From Thermodesulfobacteriota bacterium (GTDB taxonomy: Bacteria; Desulfobacterota; DSM-4660; Desulfatiglandales; Desulfatiglandaceae), in NCBI GenBank assembly GCA_028278625.1, contig JANQDY010000106.1, forward strand, positions 1 through 31,226: a DNA stretch of 31,226 nucleotides, written 5' to 3'. A program made the position numbers and the translations under genes. Below the pieces are notes generated by a model that did not search any database, was not told the DNA's origin, and saw only the letters and a list, made by a program, of their open reading frames with translations. Positions 12,922 through 18,524 of this stretch are shown here, piece by piece; position 1 is the stretch's first letter, and every line of letters starts with the position of its first letter.

Positions 12922-13373
12922 GAGAAAAGAAGCTAAAAAACAACTTCTATGTGATAATTTATGTTAGGGCATCAAAATATAAATAGCTTCTTTTAACAGG
13001 CGAATCCTCTAAGATGGCGGTATCACATGGAAAAGCCGGCATTGGGAGAAACCAACCGCACAAAAAGCCAGGTGCGCCTTTAAAAAAGGCGCTTGACTTC
13101 TGGCATTGTGGGCACTAACAGCGGTATTACGATGTATTAATTCCTGATAGCAAGTACCTAAACGCTCAATACGGGGTGAGGGAGGATCAAAAATAAGGAA
13201 TTCAAGGCGTTGATCGACATGGCCAGAGAACTGGGCTGAAAATCTGGAAGAAGTCGCCGCAGCCTTTTCGGCAGTCCAGAAATAGTGTCTTTTTCCACGA
13301 ACCATTCATGTGAAGACAGGCCCGCTGCTCCAAAAGGCATTCCCTATCTCTATCCGGGACTTTTGCAATAGAC
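12922..13373. other. Intergenic stretch with degenerate frames, no recognised gene
   Basis: About 450 bp between divergent transcription units. The left part (to about 13010) is AT-rich and may hold regulatory sequence. From 13010 to 13330 the composition turns coding-like, and short frames exist on both strands (for example minus 13009-13305), but none has a ribosome site, a domain or similarity I recognise. Plus-strand frames are broken by stops (for example KNKEFKALIDMARELG followed by TGA). It may be a decayed gene. Confidence 0.4.
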
Positions 13374-13840: not shown

Positions 13841-14650
13841 ATGCAAGACTTGCTAACACAATTTAAGCTCATATCGATCATCTGCATACTTCTGGCCACA
13901 TTGGCCGGCGGCTACTTTCCTCTGACACAGCGGAAAATGACAAAAACACCGATGGGCCTGTCACTTGGTCAAGCCTTTGCAGCAGGCGTCTTTCTGGCAC
14001 TGTCGCTCATCATTATGCTTCCCAACGCTCTGCATTTGTTCGGCCGGGCGTATCCCCATATTAACTACCCGATTGCCGCGCCGCTCGCCATCGTTGCCTT
14101 CTTATTCCTTGTGGCCCTAAGCCATGTCGCTTACGGGAAAACGGCCAAAGAAGCCGAGACAGGGCAGCCATCCTCACCAGTGATTCCGGTCATCATAACC
14201 GTGATGATCGCCGTACCATCCTTCCTGCTCGGCACGGCCTTGGGTATCAGCGACGCCGCCTCAGCGCTTTTGCTTTTTGGGGCCATCATGGCCCATAAGG
14301 GAAGCGCCGCGTTTGCCTTGGCCCTGGCCATAGTGCGCAGCACCCTCTCTCGAACTCGGGCGTATGCTCTATTTGGATTGTTTGCCTGTGCCACTCCCTT
14401 GGGCATACTCCTCGGCGCGGATGTGCATGTCTATTTGAAGGGCCAGGGAGCCTTGATAACAAAAGCCATCATACTCTCCCTGGCTGCCGGTGTTTTCCTG
14501 TTCATGGCAACCCTGCACGAAATGAAGCACTCTCCGCTGATTATCCATTGTTGCACCCCCAAAGGTTTTCTGGCGATGCTGGCTGGCCTGATCATCACCG
14601 CTCTGGTGCGGTTGATGATTGGCCTGGCGCACACCGGGCACCCTGTTTGA
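13841..14650 (+). CDS. ZIP-family membrane protein with degenerate metal ligands
   Basis: A 269-residue membrane protein with eight hydrophobic helices. ZIP hallmarks are present: SLGQAFAAGVFLALSLIIMLPNAL (helix 2, about residues 41-64), AHKGSAAFAL (helix 5, 151-160) and LSLAAGVFLFMATLHEM (helix 6, 212-228). The usual helix-4 ligands (His and Glu of HxxxEG) read PSFLLG here, and the Glu of helix 5 (HKxxEAF) is Ala156. Most of the known transport-site ligands are therefore missing, and His152 remains. It has an excellent AAGGAGG ribosome site nine bases before the ATG. A transporter with altered specificity or a non-transporting relative are both possible. It lies upstream of the CDF/SPFH cassette. 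Confidence 0.7.
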   Translation: MQDLLTQFKLISIICILLATLAGGYFPLTQRKMTKTPMGLSLGQAFAAGVFLALSLIIMLPNALHLFGRAYPHINYPIAAPLAIVAFLFLVALSHVAYGKTAKEAETGQPSSPVIPVIITVMIAVPSFLLGTALGISDAASALLLFGAIMAHKGSAAFALALAIVRSTLSRTRAYALFGLFACATPLGILLGADVHVYLKGQGALITKAIILSLAAGVFLFMATLHEMKHSPLIIHCCTPKGFLAMLAGLIITALVRLMIGLAHTGHPV

Positions 14651-14729
14651 CGCGCCGGCCCAGATACGGAGTTGTCTCGGTTTAACGAAATGATTTCATC
14701 ACATCCTTCCCGTCCCTGGGCCGGAGCAC

Positions 14730-14787
14730 TGGAAAAACCGCACACACACCTGGTACACAATGACCGACAGCACGAAGCTAAAGGCCA
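14730..14787 (-). pseudogene. Relic copy of the feoB 3' end (58 nt)
   Basis: The 58 nt match 18541-18598, the 3' end of the intact feoB, with about eight substitutions and no gaps, in the same orientation. On the minus strand it still reads LAFSFVLSVIVYQVCVRFFQ, against MAFAFVLSVIVYQVGMRFFQ in FeoB. The stop codon is absent (CAG TGC follows), and similarity ends sharply on both sides. It is the left member of a direct-repeat pair that brackets the CDF/SPFH cassette. Confidence 0.85.
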
Positions 14788-14867
14788 GTTTTTCTTTTCG
14801 GCTTGATTAAACACAACCAAAAGGATATTTGGGTATTAACTGTATTAAAGGACTCAGGATTTATCAA

Positions 14868-16592
14868 ATGACCGAAACCCAATCCAAGCATCTGAAAAAC
14901 AGGGCCATAGCCCTAAAAACCGCCGCTATTGTGGTCGGCATGAATATTTTCCTGACCGGTTTCAAATTCATCGTCTATGTCTTTTCGGACAGTCTGGCGG
15001 TGCTTGCGGAAGCCTGGCACAGCTTTACGGATATCGCCACAAGCGGCATGGTCTTTTTTGCATTGGAATTTACAAATCGGAGAAATAGAAAATTCTCTGA
15101 AAGTGGAGAAAGGGAAACACCCCCGACAGTCGGCAAACCGGAAATGATCGTCTCCATTTGTATTGGCGTTTTGCTTCTTACGGTAGCCTGCTTTCTTTTT
15201 AAGAAGTTAATGGGCTCTGAACTGATACCCGTACGAAATCCCTTGGCGTCCGGTATTATCTTCCTTGTTTTTGCCATTTTGTCTTATTTTGTGGGTACCT
15301 TTGAAACGCGGGTTGGAAAAAGGGAGGCATCGCTGGGACTGATTTCCGATGGAATGCATGCCAAAGCAGATATGATTGCCTCCTTGCTGACAGGGTTTTC
15401 CCTTATTGTCTACTCAATGGGTTTAAACATCGACAAGTGGATCGCCGGGATTATTGCAGTATTCATTTTGGCACTGGCCCTTGAGATATTTGCCAATGTA
15501 TACCGGGTGCATCGGGACAAAAACGGCGATTTGCTTTATACGTATCGCTTTTTTAACTCCGTTCCATATGTTTTCAGCATAAAGAACATGAAACAAATAC
15601 CGAGACAATTTCATACATTTCTGGCCAACCGTTTAGGGGACGGCAAGAAAACAACCCTATTGCATAGAAGCGTTCTATTGGCGCCATTGATCGGAATGGC
15701 ACTTTTTTATGGATCCACGGCCTGTTATACGGTCGCTGCCAATGAGACCGCCATTGTCGAGCGTTTCGGCAGACCGGTCAGCAAGGAGACCCCCGTCCCG
15801 CCCGGTTTTCACTTGAAGCTTCCCTGGCCCTTTGACAAGGTGATAAAAGTCCCATCATCCACCATCCATGAGTTAAACATAGGGAATATCAGCACAACAG
15901 ATAATCGTGGATTCATCTGGACCCTGAAGCACGGCACTGAGGAGGCCTTTTTAACAGGGGACAACAATTTCTTCTATCCCTATATTATTCTCCATTACTT
16001 GATTAGGGATCCATTCAAATACCTCTACAAAAACTCAGATCCTGAAAAACTGCTTAGTGAAATCGGACATAGAATTGCCGTCATTCTTTTTGCAAGGGAA
16101 TCTTTCTATGATATTGCGACCACTGACCGAGAGCTGCTTCAAAAAGAAATGACACGTGGCATCCAGGAATGCCTGGACAAACATCAAAGTGGTATCCAAC
16201 TGGTAAACGTCAATTTCAAGGATATTCACCCTCCGATTTCCATTGCCAGATCATTTGAAAATGTTATCGCCGGTTTTCAGGAAAAGCAGGAGTTGATAAA
16301 TAAGGCGATCGGATATGCGAACGGTGTCATTCCCGATTCCCGGGGAAAAGGGGAAAAGAACATCCAGGCTGCGGCAGGCGACACTGTTTTTCGCATTCGC
16401 GTGGCAGAAGGGGAGGCGAAAAGATTCAACCTGAGACTGCCGGCAACGGATTCGGAAAAAGAGATTACAATGACGCGCATTTATTGTGAAACCATGAAAG
16501 AGACACTAAAACACCTAACTAAGATCATTGTCGATCCACAGGTCGGCACCCCCGAAATCTGGATGAATTTTGAAAATCCCTACTTTGAGTGA
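14868..16592 (+). CDS. Fusion of a cation diffusion facilitator (zinc-type) with an HflK-like SPFH domain
   Basis: A 574-residue protein with two parts. Residues 1-215 form a six-helix CDF transporter domain with both metal-site motifs intact, HSFTD (H51/D55, helix 2) and HAKAD (H164/D168, helix 5), the His-x3-Asp pair of Zn/Cd/Co exporters. The usual CDF C-terminal cytosolic domain is missing. After a ~50-residue linker, a seventh helix (about 267-290) leads into an HflK-type SPFH domain (VAANETAIVERFGRPV, PPGFHLKLPWPFDKV, FLTGDNNF, LIRDPFKYLYK), which would lie in the periplasm as in HflK. The ATG at 14868 has AGGA eight bases upstream; an earlier TTG at 14829 lies in a weak promoter-like element. 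It is the first gene of an operon with HflC- and HflK-like proteins. Confidence 0.88.
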   Translation: MTETQSKHLKNRAIALKTAAIVVGMNIFLTGFKFIVYVFSDSLAVLAEAWHSFTDIATSGMVFFALEFTNRRNRKFSESGERETPPTVGKPEMIVSICIGVLLLTVACFLFKKLMGSELIPVRNPLASGIIFLVFAILSYFVGTFETRVGKREASLGLISDGMHAKADMIASLLTGFSLIVYSMGLNIDKWIAGIIAVFILALALEIFANVYRVHRDKNGDLLYTYRFFNSVPYVFSIKNMKQIPRQFHTFLANRLGDGKKTTLLHRSVLLAPLIGMALFYGSTACYTVAANETAIVERFGRPVSKETPVPPGFHLKLPWPFDKVIKVPSSTIHELNIGNISTTDNRGFIWTLKHGTEEAFLTGDNNFFYPYIILHYLIRDPFKYLYKNSDPEKLLSEIGHRIAVILFARESFYDIATTDRELLQKEMTRGIQECLDKHQSGIQLVNVNFKDIHPPISIARSFENVIAGFQEKQELINKAIGYANGVIPDSRGKGEKNIQAAAGDTVFRIRVAEGEAKRFNLRLPATDSEKEITMTRIYCETMKETLKHLTKIIVDPQVGTPEIWMNFENPYFE

Positions 16593-16645
16593 TCTGTCGG
16601 CATTATTTAAGACTGGTGAATAGCGCATGATGATGAGGTCCTAAG

Positions 16646-17530
16646 ATGAGATATTTTGTTTCCGGTATGTTGGCAATTGTTGTTCTGGCGTATTTGTGTT
16701 CCTATACGGTGTCGGAAAGAGAGTACGTCGTATTGACGCGATTTGGAAAACCTGTTGAAACGGTCAATTCGGCGGGGCTTCACCATAAACTCCCCGGTTT
16801 TATTGAAACCGTCAACAGAATTGAAAAGCGGACCCACATTTTTAATACCAGGCCGATTCAGCTTCTGCTTGGAGACAAGAATCCCATCGTGATAACCTGT
16901 TATATCTGCTGGCGTGTAAAAGATCCCCTGCTCTTTTTTCAATCACTTTTGGACAGTGAGATTGCCACCCAGAAACTCTCGGATATGGTGCATTCACAAA
17001 TGGGAAATGTGTTGGGAGAGTTTAGATTGAACAATATTATCAATACCAATCCTTCGGAAGTGAAATTAGATGAACTGGAGCAGCGGATATTGTCCAATAC
17101 CAACGCCAGTGCAAGTGAAAAATATGGGATAGAGGTCGTTCAAATAGGGGTTAGAAGACTTGCCTACCCCTCCGTGGTTGCGGATGCGGTTTATAACAGA
17201 ATGCGATCTGAACGGGAAAAGGAGGCAAGGAAGTTTCGTGCTGAAGGAAAGGAAGAGGCGACGAAGATCAGGGCAAAGGCGGATCGAGAGGCCAAGGAGA
17301 TTCTTGCTGAAGCATTAAAGCAATCAGAAATTCTCAAAGGGGAAGGTGATCACCGGGCCCTGAAAATATATTCGGAGGTATATCAAAAGGATAAGGAATT
17401 CTTTGAATTCTTGAAATCCATGGAAGTTTACAAAGATATTCTTAAGGATAAGAGTACCATTGTGCTGTCCACGGATTCAGATATCTTCAAATACTTGAAT
17501 CACTCCCGAGGAACCGCTGAGAATGACTGA
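16646..17530 (+). CDS. HflC-like SPFH/Band 7 protein
   Basis: A 294-residue protein with one N-terminal helix (MRYFVSGMLAIVVLAYLCSY) and a periplasmic SPFH domain. Family marks are SEREYVVLTRFGKPV, the AGLHHKLPGFIETV turn, and VVQIGVRRLAYPSVVADAVYNRM followed by a charged coiled coil (about 190-245, repeats of EARKFRAEGKEEATKIRAKA). The order and length match HflC, which with HflK forms a cage around the FtsH protease. No ftsH is in the window. GAGG lies seven bases before the ATG, and the stop overlaps the next gene by 8 nt. Its partner here may be the CDF-HflK fusion as well as, or instead of, FtsH. Confidence 0.9.
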   Translation: MRYFVSGMLAIVVLAYLCSYTVSEREYVVLTRFGKPVETVNSAGLHHKLPGFIETVNRIEKRTHIFNTRPIQLLLGDKNPIVITCYICWRVKDPLLFFQSLLDSEIATQKLSDMVHSQMGNVLGEFRLNNIINTNPSEVKLDELEQRILSNTNASASEKYGIEVVQIGVRRLAYPSVVADAVYNRMRSEREKEARKFRAEGKEEATKIRAKADREAKEILAEALKQSEILKGEGDHRALKIYSEVYQKDKEFFEFLKSMEVYKDILKDKSTIVLSTDSDIFKYLNHSRGTAEND

Positions 17531-18524
17531 AAAGAAAGAGCATTTTCTTAAAAAGACGTTCAATTATGCCTTAAAGCATTCCGTTCTGTTTTTCCGGTTT
17601 GTTCTGGTCTGTTTAATTGTTTTATATCTGCTTTCAGGTGTTTTTTCCATTTCATCGAATGAAATCGGTGTACATCAAAGGTTCGGGCGAATTATCAATG
17701 ATAAAGTTCAGCCTGGTATCCATTACAAGCTGCCATGGCCTGTTGATAAAATCATCAAAATACCTGTTCGTGAAGTAAAACGCATGGTTATCGACGATTT
17801 TTCTATCTCATTTGACCGTGAATTGTTTCCCAAAAGCTCGGCGATAAATTTTAGATATATGACGGGCCTTGACTCTTATTGTATTACAGGGGATAATAAT
17901 CTGGCAACAATCAGGTGTGTTATTCAGTACACCATTTCAAATCCATATGAATATCTGTTCTGTATCAAAGATCCCGATATTATGCTGAGAAGCCTTGCCT
18001 GCAAGACAATTATTCACAGCATGGCCAGAATGCCGATTGATGATATTTTGACAAAAGGAAAGCAGTCCATGGCGAGCTATATTATGTTTGAGCTGCAGAG
18101 AAGGCTCGATAGATTGAAAACGGGAATCAATATTTCCTTTGTGGAGATTAATAATATCAGTCCTCCTGTACGGGTAGAGAGATATTTTTCAGATGTTATA
18201 AAGGCTTCCATTGACCGTGAGAAAAATATCAATGAAGCCGAATCTTACAGAAATGAAATTCTCCCTGAAGCCAAGGCGGAAGCCATGGAAAGAATCGAAA
18301 AAGCCAAAAGCTATAAAAAAGAAGTTATCCTTATGGCGGAAGGAAGAACAGAGCGATTCAACAAGCTTCTTGAACGCGCCGGAGAAAGAGGAAGTTCCGC
18401 CAGGGAATATCTATATATCGAATCCATGAAAGAAACCATGGAAAATGTCGGCAGCAAGCATATCATCGGCAATAACGGTGACGGAAAACCGGCCGTGAAG
18501 ATAAAAATTAAGGAAAAACAGTAA
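17523..18524 (+). CDS. HflK-like SPFH/Band 7 protein
   Basis: A 333-residue protein with a cytoplasmic N-terminus, one helix (about 20-42) and an HflK-type SPFH domain: SSNEIGVHQRFGRI, QPGIHYKLPWPVDKIIKIP, CITGDNNLATIRCVIQY and NPYEYLF. A long helical region follows (about 225-300, NEAESYRNEILPEAKAEA). The same motif set occurs in the SPFH half of the fusion two genes upstream, so the operon encodes two HflK-type and one HflC-type domains. It lacks the Gly-rich N-terminal tail common in HflK. It overlaps the hflC-like gene by 8 nt and ends 12 bp from the convergent feoB. Confidence 0.9.
   Translation: MTEKKEHFLKKTFNYALKHSVLFFRFVLVCLIVLYLLSGVFSISSNEIGVHQRFGRIINDKVQPGIHYKLPWPVDKIIKIPVREVKRMVIDDFSISFDRELFPKSSAINFRYMTGLDSYCITGDNNLATIRCVIQYTISNPYEYLFCIKDPDIMLRSLACKTIIHSMARMPIDDILTKGKQSMASYIMFELQRRLDRLKTGINISFVEINNISPPVRVERYFSDVIKASIDREKNINEAESYRNEILPEAKAEAMERIEKAKSYKKEVILMAEGRTERFNKLLERAGERGSSAREYLYIESMKETMENVGSKHIIGNNGDGKPAVKIKIKEKQ

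Follow-up and report, generated by a model that had tools for sequence, protein, structure and literature searches.

HflK normally carries one N-terminal transmembrane helix, and a cytosolic C-terminal domain is usual, though not universal, in transporters of the cation diffusion facilitator (CDF) superfamily. The SPFH dome of stomatin faces the cytosol, and flotillin-associated rhodopsin involves separate genes, a flotillin instead of HflK/C and light instead of metal. Here we analysed a window of 31,226 nucleotides from a Thermodesulfobacteriota bacterium (assembly GCA_028278625.1, contig JANQDY010000106.1, positions 1 to 31,226), in which a CDF transporter is fused to an HflK-type SPFH domain and is followed by hflC-like and hflK-like genes. 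In the E. coli HflK/HflC-FtsH complex (PDB 7WI3, 9CZ2; PMC12048511), HflK alternates with HflC in a 24-subunit assembly around FtsH. The three-gene set resembles it in SPFH and hat architecture and in its HflC- and HflK-type partners, and a periplasmic orientation is expected here too. Unlike that complex, one of its HflK-type subunits bears a six-helix transporter, there are three genes instead of two, a canonical arginine is mostly lost and the operon contigs carry no FtsH gene. Unlike YiiP/FieF and the ZnT (SLC30) proteins (PDB 8F6K, 8J7V), the fusion has no CDF C-terminal domain, in place of which come a linker, a seventh helix and a predicted periplasmic SPFH domain. Stomatin forms, in human erythrocytes, a dome that encloses aquaporin-1 or UT-B as separate cargo (PMC12407830); in the fusion the transporter is part of the dome subunit itself, and the dome is expected on the periplasmic side. 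Flotillin-associated rhodopsin is described as a membrane protein related to transporters and associated with a gene of the SPFH family (PMC10308929), and in P. aeruginosa three SPFH genes of the HflK/HflC kind, PA2439-PA2437, are likewise clustered with a metal transporter gene, hmtA (PA2435). Open-access literature searches found no description of a CDF-HflK fusion or system. The architecture is real, conserved and undescribed in the literature searched. We consider it probable that the metal transporter is built into an HflK/C-type periplasmic dome or docks in one, most likely as a zinc-type CDF exporter in the dome wall.

The fusion is one uninterrupted open frame on the forward strand, from an ATG at 14868 to the stop at 16592, and encodes 574 amino acids; an alternative TTG start at 14829 would make it 13 residues longer. 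Pfam scans placed Cation_efflux at residues 21-211 (80.5 bits against a cut-off of 26.6) and Band_7 at residues 288-480 (56.8 bits against 23.6). The protein scored above the cut-off of the NCBIfam CDF model TIGR01297 and narrowly below that of the hflK model TIGR01933 (153.2 against 159.4), and neither the Pfam nor the NCBIfam scan matched a CDF C-terminal domain. Residues 1-218 (14868..15521, +) have the six-helix CDF membrane fold with two metal motifs, H51-S-F-T-D55 and H164-A-K-A-D168; a doubled HxxxD is the pattern of zinc-type CDFs. In the AlphaFold2 (AF2) model, the six helices are followed by two short ones (228-235 and 238-256) in a predicted cytosolic linker and by an extra transmembrane helix at 259-283 (linker and helix together 15522..15716, +), so that a short helical linker alone precedes helix 7, where CDFs have their C-terminal domain. 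Residues 284-574 (15717..16589, +) comprise the SPFH domain and long hat helices of the HflK fold, as revealed by Pfam, the model and structure comparison, and the model matches structures of both YiiP and HflK. The fusion therefore has seven modelled membrane helices, unlike canonical HflK. The original prediction of a 574-residue protein with both metal motifs intact, a CDF part lacking its cytosolic domain, an extra helix and an HflK-like SPFH domain was borne out by the open frame, the domain scans and the model. The six CDF helices plus one more are also compatible with its proposal that the SPFH domain lies in the periplasm. By sequence, the membrane domain assigns the protein to the CDF superfamily and the SPFH domain assigns it to the HflK/C group, yet it is not a canonical HflK.

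Downstream lie the hflC-like gene (16646..17530, +; 294 amino acids; TIGR01932 hflC, 199.7 bits against a cut-off of 134.4) and the hflK-like gene (17523..18524, +; 333 amino acids; TIGR01933 hflK, 186.2 bits against 159.4). These two overlap by 8 bp, whereas a stretch of 53 bp sets the fusion apart from hflC, which corrects the original description on this point. Conservation of the three-gene order had been set beforehand as a check, and the order fusion-hflC-hflK on one strand was indeed found in 18/18 fusion loci (the window, L001-L011, L018-L021, L031 and L059), which, having been picked by the fusion, reveal the company it keeps and not its frequency. In L010 the hflK gene leaves the contig; in L018-L021 it is cut in the fetched stretch and is whole in L055-L058. 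Intergenic gaps across 17 loci range from -125 to 53 bp, the larger overlaps hinging on the chosen start codon. The G+C content of the operon is 0.41-0.45 (window:15001-18000), compared with 0.47-0.56 elsewhere in the window in 1500-base steps, and may reflect horizontal acquisition. An imperfect 9-nt palindrome lies at 13360-13371, upstream of a YidD gene. A scan of the window gave 13 promoters against 9.8 in shuffled sequence and 6 terminators against 6.5, and was not used.

A protein search with the fusion returned 201 proteins at E <= 0.001, and both Pfam domains occur in 118 of the best 120 of these, the window's own included; the other two, P0038 and P0107, have the SPFH domain alone, their sequences starting within the CDF domain. 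Some homologues sit on contigs of 3.2 and 6.7 Mb, and a divergent full-length relative is carried by a complete conjugative plasmid of Aquibium oceanicum. Because these 118 of 120 listed proteins, the long contigs and the complete plasmid share both domains, the fusion is not a product of chance or an assembly slip. The domain pair, as anticipated, recurs across genomes and is not confined to one; a lost stop codon or an assembly join was rejected as its cause, because relatives are numerous and come from different sources. Scanning genome contigs gave 11 fusion loci, whose record titles name Desulfobacterales, Deltaproteobacteria, Thermodesulfobacteriota, Desulfobacteraceae, Planctomycetota, Spirochaetales, Muiribacteriota and simply 'bacterium'. 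Among plasmids, 72 records matched the window protein, one of them at >=80% coverage. Within phyla, and counting each starting genome, a search at E <= 1e-60 found the fusion in 10/395 genomes of the G001 phylum (six of them already known), and searches at E <= 1e-40 found it in 2/199 genomes of the G008 phylum and 1/198 of the G011 phylum; more divergent fusions, that of Aquibium for example, would escape these cut-offs. The fusion is thus sparsely distributed across several bacterial phyla. The genome of L001 holds a second SPFH/hflC/hflK set (L048; G001:C436), in which a fusion-like SPFH domain is cut at the contig end. At L025:3556-6664, two neighbouring proteins of 512 and 522 amino acids carry some 150 residues ahead of their SPFH domain, which is their sole Pfam match.

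We next consider the conservation of the metal site. H51, D55, H164 and D168 occur together in 117/118 full-length sequences, the Aquibium protein included; the sole exception, P0033, has a gap at D55. All four ligands are invariant in alignments A1 (56 sequences) and A2 (77 sequences). A loop of the SPFH domain (15918..15944, +) is also conserved, with W351 in 117/118 and H355 in 116/118 sequences of this active family. Within the SPFH part, a loose W-H pattern was found in 116/118 members of the active family and in 5/5 rows of a sister family whose CDF-fold domain lacks the metal site, compared with 0/17 operon HflKs, 0/13 canonical HflKs and 1/5 HflKs of the metal-site-less operons. Over whole proteins it was found in 120/120 listed metal-site-less proteins and in 10/120 listed fusions of an SO_0444-type exporter. 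The loop, a low-confidence region of the AF2 model, could touch the exit of the pump.

Phylogenetic analysis of 95 SPFH-domain rows recovered the fusion, hflC and hflK of the same 15 loci each as a supported clade (100/99, 100/99 and 99/98), and this parallel branching suggests that the genes are passed on as a set. Canonical HflC rows form a single clade (100/96), and the clade in which canonical HflK rows lie (100/93) includes HflK-type sequences from L021, L031 and the SO_0444-type operon as well. In the divergent loci L021 and L031, HflC clusters with its counterpart from the SO_0444-type operon (100/93). The CDF domains of the fusions cluster as a single clade to the exclusion of 18 plain CDFs (90/96), and a single SPFH clade of all fusions was not rejected (p 0.076); one origin of the fusion is therefore favoured by the trees. 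Two independent origins, at first suggested by the placement of L021 and L031 outside the main clade of the SPFH tree, are not claimed. A single clade of active and metal-site-less SPFH domains was likewise not rejected (p 0.176).

An alternative is that the set forms a paralogous HflK/C ring around FtsH, with the CDF domain merely tuning or anchoring it. The SPFH domains are indeed of the HflK/HflC type, and FtsH is present in 10/11 genomes of the relatives (the set for these counts, with the window's own genome outside it), though never on the operon contigs. However, nine of these genomes hold a separate canonical hflKC pair (L037-L045; the other two are not settled), and a conserved metal site would be needless in a mere anchor. 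Arginine occupies position 193 (numbered as in the E. coli record) in 13/13 canonical HflKs (from nine genomes, E. coli and three plasmid pairs) and is lost in 17/17 operon HflKs, in 15/17 fusions (kept in L021 and L031, not in the window's) and in 5/5 metal-site-less fusions. HflK Arg191 is reported to contact FtsH (PMC12048511); the numbering is off by two from the record used here, and the two sites are not equated, so identity of the lost arginine with this contact is uncertain. Overall, we regard the FtsH-ring explanation as improbable and retain the dome with a built-in transporter.

From comparison of domain layouts, bacteria appear to couple metal transport to HflK/C-like sets in no fewer than three ways, of which the CDF fusion is the first. 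In the second, an SO_0444-type Cu/Zn exporter of the ArsP family (PF03773), a transporter family other than the CDFs, is fused to an HflK-type SPFH domain and followed by hflC and hflK (L023:1777-5965, the one operon examined). A search with this fusion gave 1145 matches, all 120 listed having both domains, and the protein passes NCBIfam NF033936, a model named for Cu/Zn efflux. A search of the open-access literature found no paper on SO_0444 together with HflK. In the third, the metal-site-less CDF-fold domain is fused to SPFH and accompanied by hflC, hflK and a P1B metal ATPase (L022:2197-8449, L023:12264-17833, L024:996-7060, L033:6239-12251 and L034:6368-12420). The ATPase gene is adjacent in 8/8 operons opened, which include five of the best ten plasmid matches H23-H32, namely H23 (L034), H24 (L033), H25, H27 and H31. 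Among the few named matches of this family most are Planctomycetota. Near one such operon, in Paraburkholderia, are genes for a zinc ABC transporter and for a copper chaperone, and another, on a Klebsiella aerogenes plasmid (L079), has a DUF4198 gene close by. Lacking the [HD]xxxD motif in 115/123 members, this CDF-fold domain seems likely to be a non-transporting docking platform, and the family would be a clear case of a pseudo-transporter retained for another role. Its existence makes it conceivable that the CDF domain of the window's family, too, is only a docking scaffold. We nevertheless consider this very unlikely, since all four ligands are kept in 117/118 sequences and a P1B ATPase occurs in the flanks of 1/17 other active-CDF loci (L031, outside its three genes; flank lengths vary), that of the window being some 6.6 kb distant on the opposite strand.

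Cluster PA2434-PA2439 of P. aeruginosa PAO1 comprises HmtA, described as a Zn/Cu importer (PMC8456098), and three HflC/HflK-family genes (PMC4542158). In a znuA mutant, PA2437, PA2438 and PA2439 were up 14.4-, 10.6- and 9.0-fold and HmtA 5.6-fold (PMC4542158), proteomics showed proteins of the cluster raised under zinc depletion (PMC11761036), and Zur binds the PA2439 promoter in vitro (PMC8531726). Judged by gene order, the cluster is apparently of the metal-site-less CDF-SPFH kind, and it differs from the fusion in having a separate P1B ATPase as its transporter. Deletion of a three-SPFH operon, PaFlo5-7, which we infer to be PA2437-PA2439, caused small phenotypes: biofilm fell slightly, and an insect model showed attenuation (PMC13086221). 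The other transporter layouts and this zinc-regulated relative strengthen the interpretation of the fusion.

Read directly from the sequences are the CDF-SPFH fusion and its metal site, the conserved gene order, the divergence from canonical HflK and an anatomy that agrees with the topology; dome assembly, transport, the identity of the metal and its direction would follow as inferences from them. In the dome reading, HflC would alternate with two kinds of HflK, a plain one and one with an N-terminal CDF membrane domain. Zn2+ or a comparable divalent ion would leave the cytosol through the CDF domain in exchange for protons and, released on the periplasmic face under the dome, would enter an enclosed space instead of the open periplasm. 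The assembly would work much as the stomatin dome does around its enclosed transporter. What such a system is for, loading enzymes or keeping metal from the rest of the periplasm, is the most speculative part. A sensing role, also raised in the original prediction, received no evidence in this analysis.

The neighbouring genes bear on this question. In the window, a ZIP-family metal transporter gene (13841..14650, +; PF02535, 84.7 bits), 217 bp before the fusion and a possible operon member, and YidD lie upstream on the same strand, FeoB lies downstream on the other strand, and CbiM, CbiQ and a P1B ATPase are further off. The latter three belong to a minus-strand group at window:6256-12588 that also includes DUF4198; the ATPase has a CPC motif and no CxxC among its first 120 residues. 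In chosen genes of the other loci, scanned with Pfam and NCBIfam, DUF1007 and NicO are directly upstream of the fusion in L004 and L055 (the latter from the genome of L018), and FeoB is near L003, L004, L005 and L055. On the Aquibium plasmid, hflK and the gene of a heavy-metal P-type ATPase have a single annotated gene (peptidylprolyl isomerase) between them, and Nramp is encoded near the operon.

CDFs with the doubled HxxxD motif are typically Zn/Cd exporters, and one purpose, compatible with the dome reading, would be containment or detoxification, the dome confining exported metal against mis-metallation of periplasmic proteins or backflow. The plasmid operon near a heavy-metal ATPase and an Nramp gene and the Cu/Zn-efflux model passed by the SO_0444-type fusion point in this direction. 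Nonetheless this purpose appears doubtful, since uptake-type neighbours, ZIP or FeoB, occur in the window, L004 and L055, and in P. aeruginosa it is a lack of zinc, and not a surplus, that raises the related cluster (PMC4542158, PMC11761036).

A second purpose, also compatible with the dome reading, is a metal-loading chamber from which metalloenzymes would receive zinc soon after their export. Genes for metallophosphoesterases occur no more than 5 kb from the operon in 6/16 genomes (G003, G005, G009, G216, G258 and G285), compared with 0.35 expected, or, with two related pairs merged, in 4 genomes compared with 0.31 expected (P about 2e-4). This P value is optimistic, the family having been chosen after its neighbours were seen, and the expectation draws on an incomplete list of matches and on gene length and flanks entered by hand; G010 had no flank to inspect and G007 no metallophosphoesterase match at all. 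The genes are at L003:8113-10260, L005:10672-12729, L056:6179-8278 and 2-1570, L057:6313-8643, L058:5149-6189 and L009:6738-8966. Judged by eye, 7/7 of the adjacent proteins whose N termini were read have a signal-peptide-like start, and two are of the 5'-nucleotidase type. No listed metallophosphoesterase was seen by eye within 5 kb of plain CDFs or of 9 canonical hflKC pairs, some of these contigs being short. In animal cells, secreted phosphatases and 5'-nucleotidase obtain their zinc from the transporters ZnT5-6 and ZnT7. CD73 and TNAP are impaired when zinc is deficient (PMC6123718), and the neighbourhood hints, by analogy, at similar loading of secreted enzymes, a lead and not a result. 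Against it, 10/16 genomes, and the window, have no nearby metallophosphoesterase. Taken together, the neighbourhoods agree somewhat better with a supply of metal to exported enzymes than with its confinement, although loading itself should be viewed as a possible but rather unlikely purpose.

Several observations weigh against the proposed dome with its built-in exporter. The CDF C-terminal domain, usual for dimerisation, is missing from the predicted protein, and the structural support is a single-chain model with a pTM of 0.57. The identity of the metal (Zn as opposed to Fe, Co, Ni or Mn) is read from the motif and the neighbouring genes. The L021 and L031 fusions lie outside the main SPFH clade and keep the canonical arginine, and the presence of FtsH in 10/11 genomes would leave room for FtsH docking. 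A search of 14640-14875, directly upstream of the fusion, found no inverted repeats and so gives the proposal no backing from a regulatory site, though degenerate sites would escape it. The P. aeruginosa counterpart responds to a shortage of zinc and is associated with an importer, a pattern that does not fit detoxifying export. Within that cluster, only PA2438 among PA2437-PA2439 reached p<0.05 (0.011, by data-dependent acquisition, DDA), PA2437 and PA2439 being above it (PMC11761036), and hmtA mRNA was low throughout, with no repression by added zinc (PMC8531726). These weak p values and the missing zinc repression slightly lower our confidence in the proposal.

HflK/C domes are known as partners of FtsH, and the roles of other SPFH domes are largely open. 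The recurrence of the fusion with its partner genes across phyla suggests a pump working inside its own membrane chamber, and a transporter built covalently into a dome subunit names the cargo of that dome, so that its function is open to a simple metal assay. In the excerpts of the cited P. aeruginosa papers (PMC4542158, PMC11761036, PMC8531726, PMC8456098), no role is assigned to the HflK/HflC genes of the zinc-regulated hmtA cluster. More broadly, we tentatively raise a bacterial class of metal-transport chambers, HflK/C-type SPFH domes whose HflK-like subunit carries an active CDF, an SO_0444-type exporter or a dead CDF that docks a P1B ATPase, in which metal would be moved within a closed patch of periplasm and, in at least some species, loaded into exported metalloenzymes. 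Three kinds of metal transporter are paired with SPFH sets, the P. aeruginosa hmtA cluster apparently among them, and this pairing suggests that bacteria may have an enclosed periplasmic compartment for metals.

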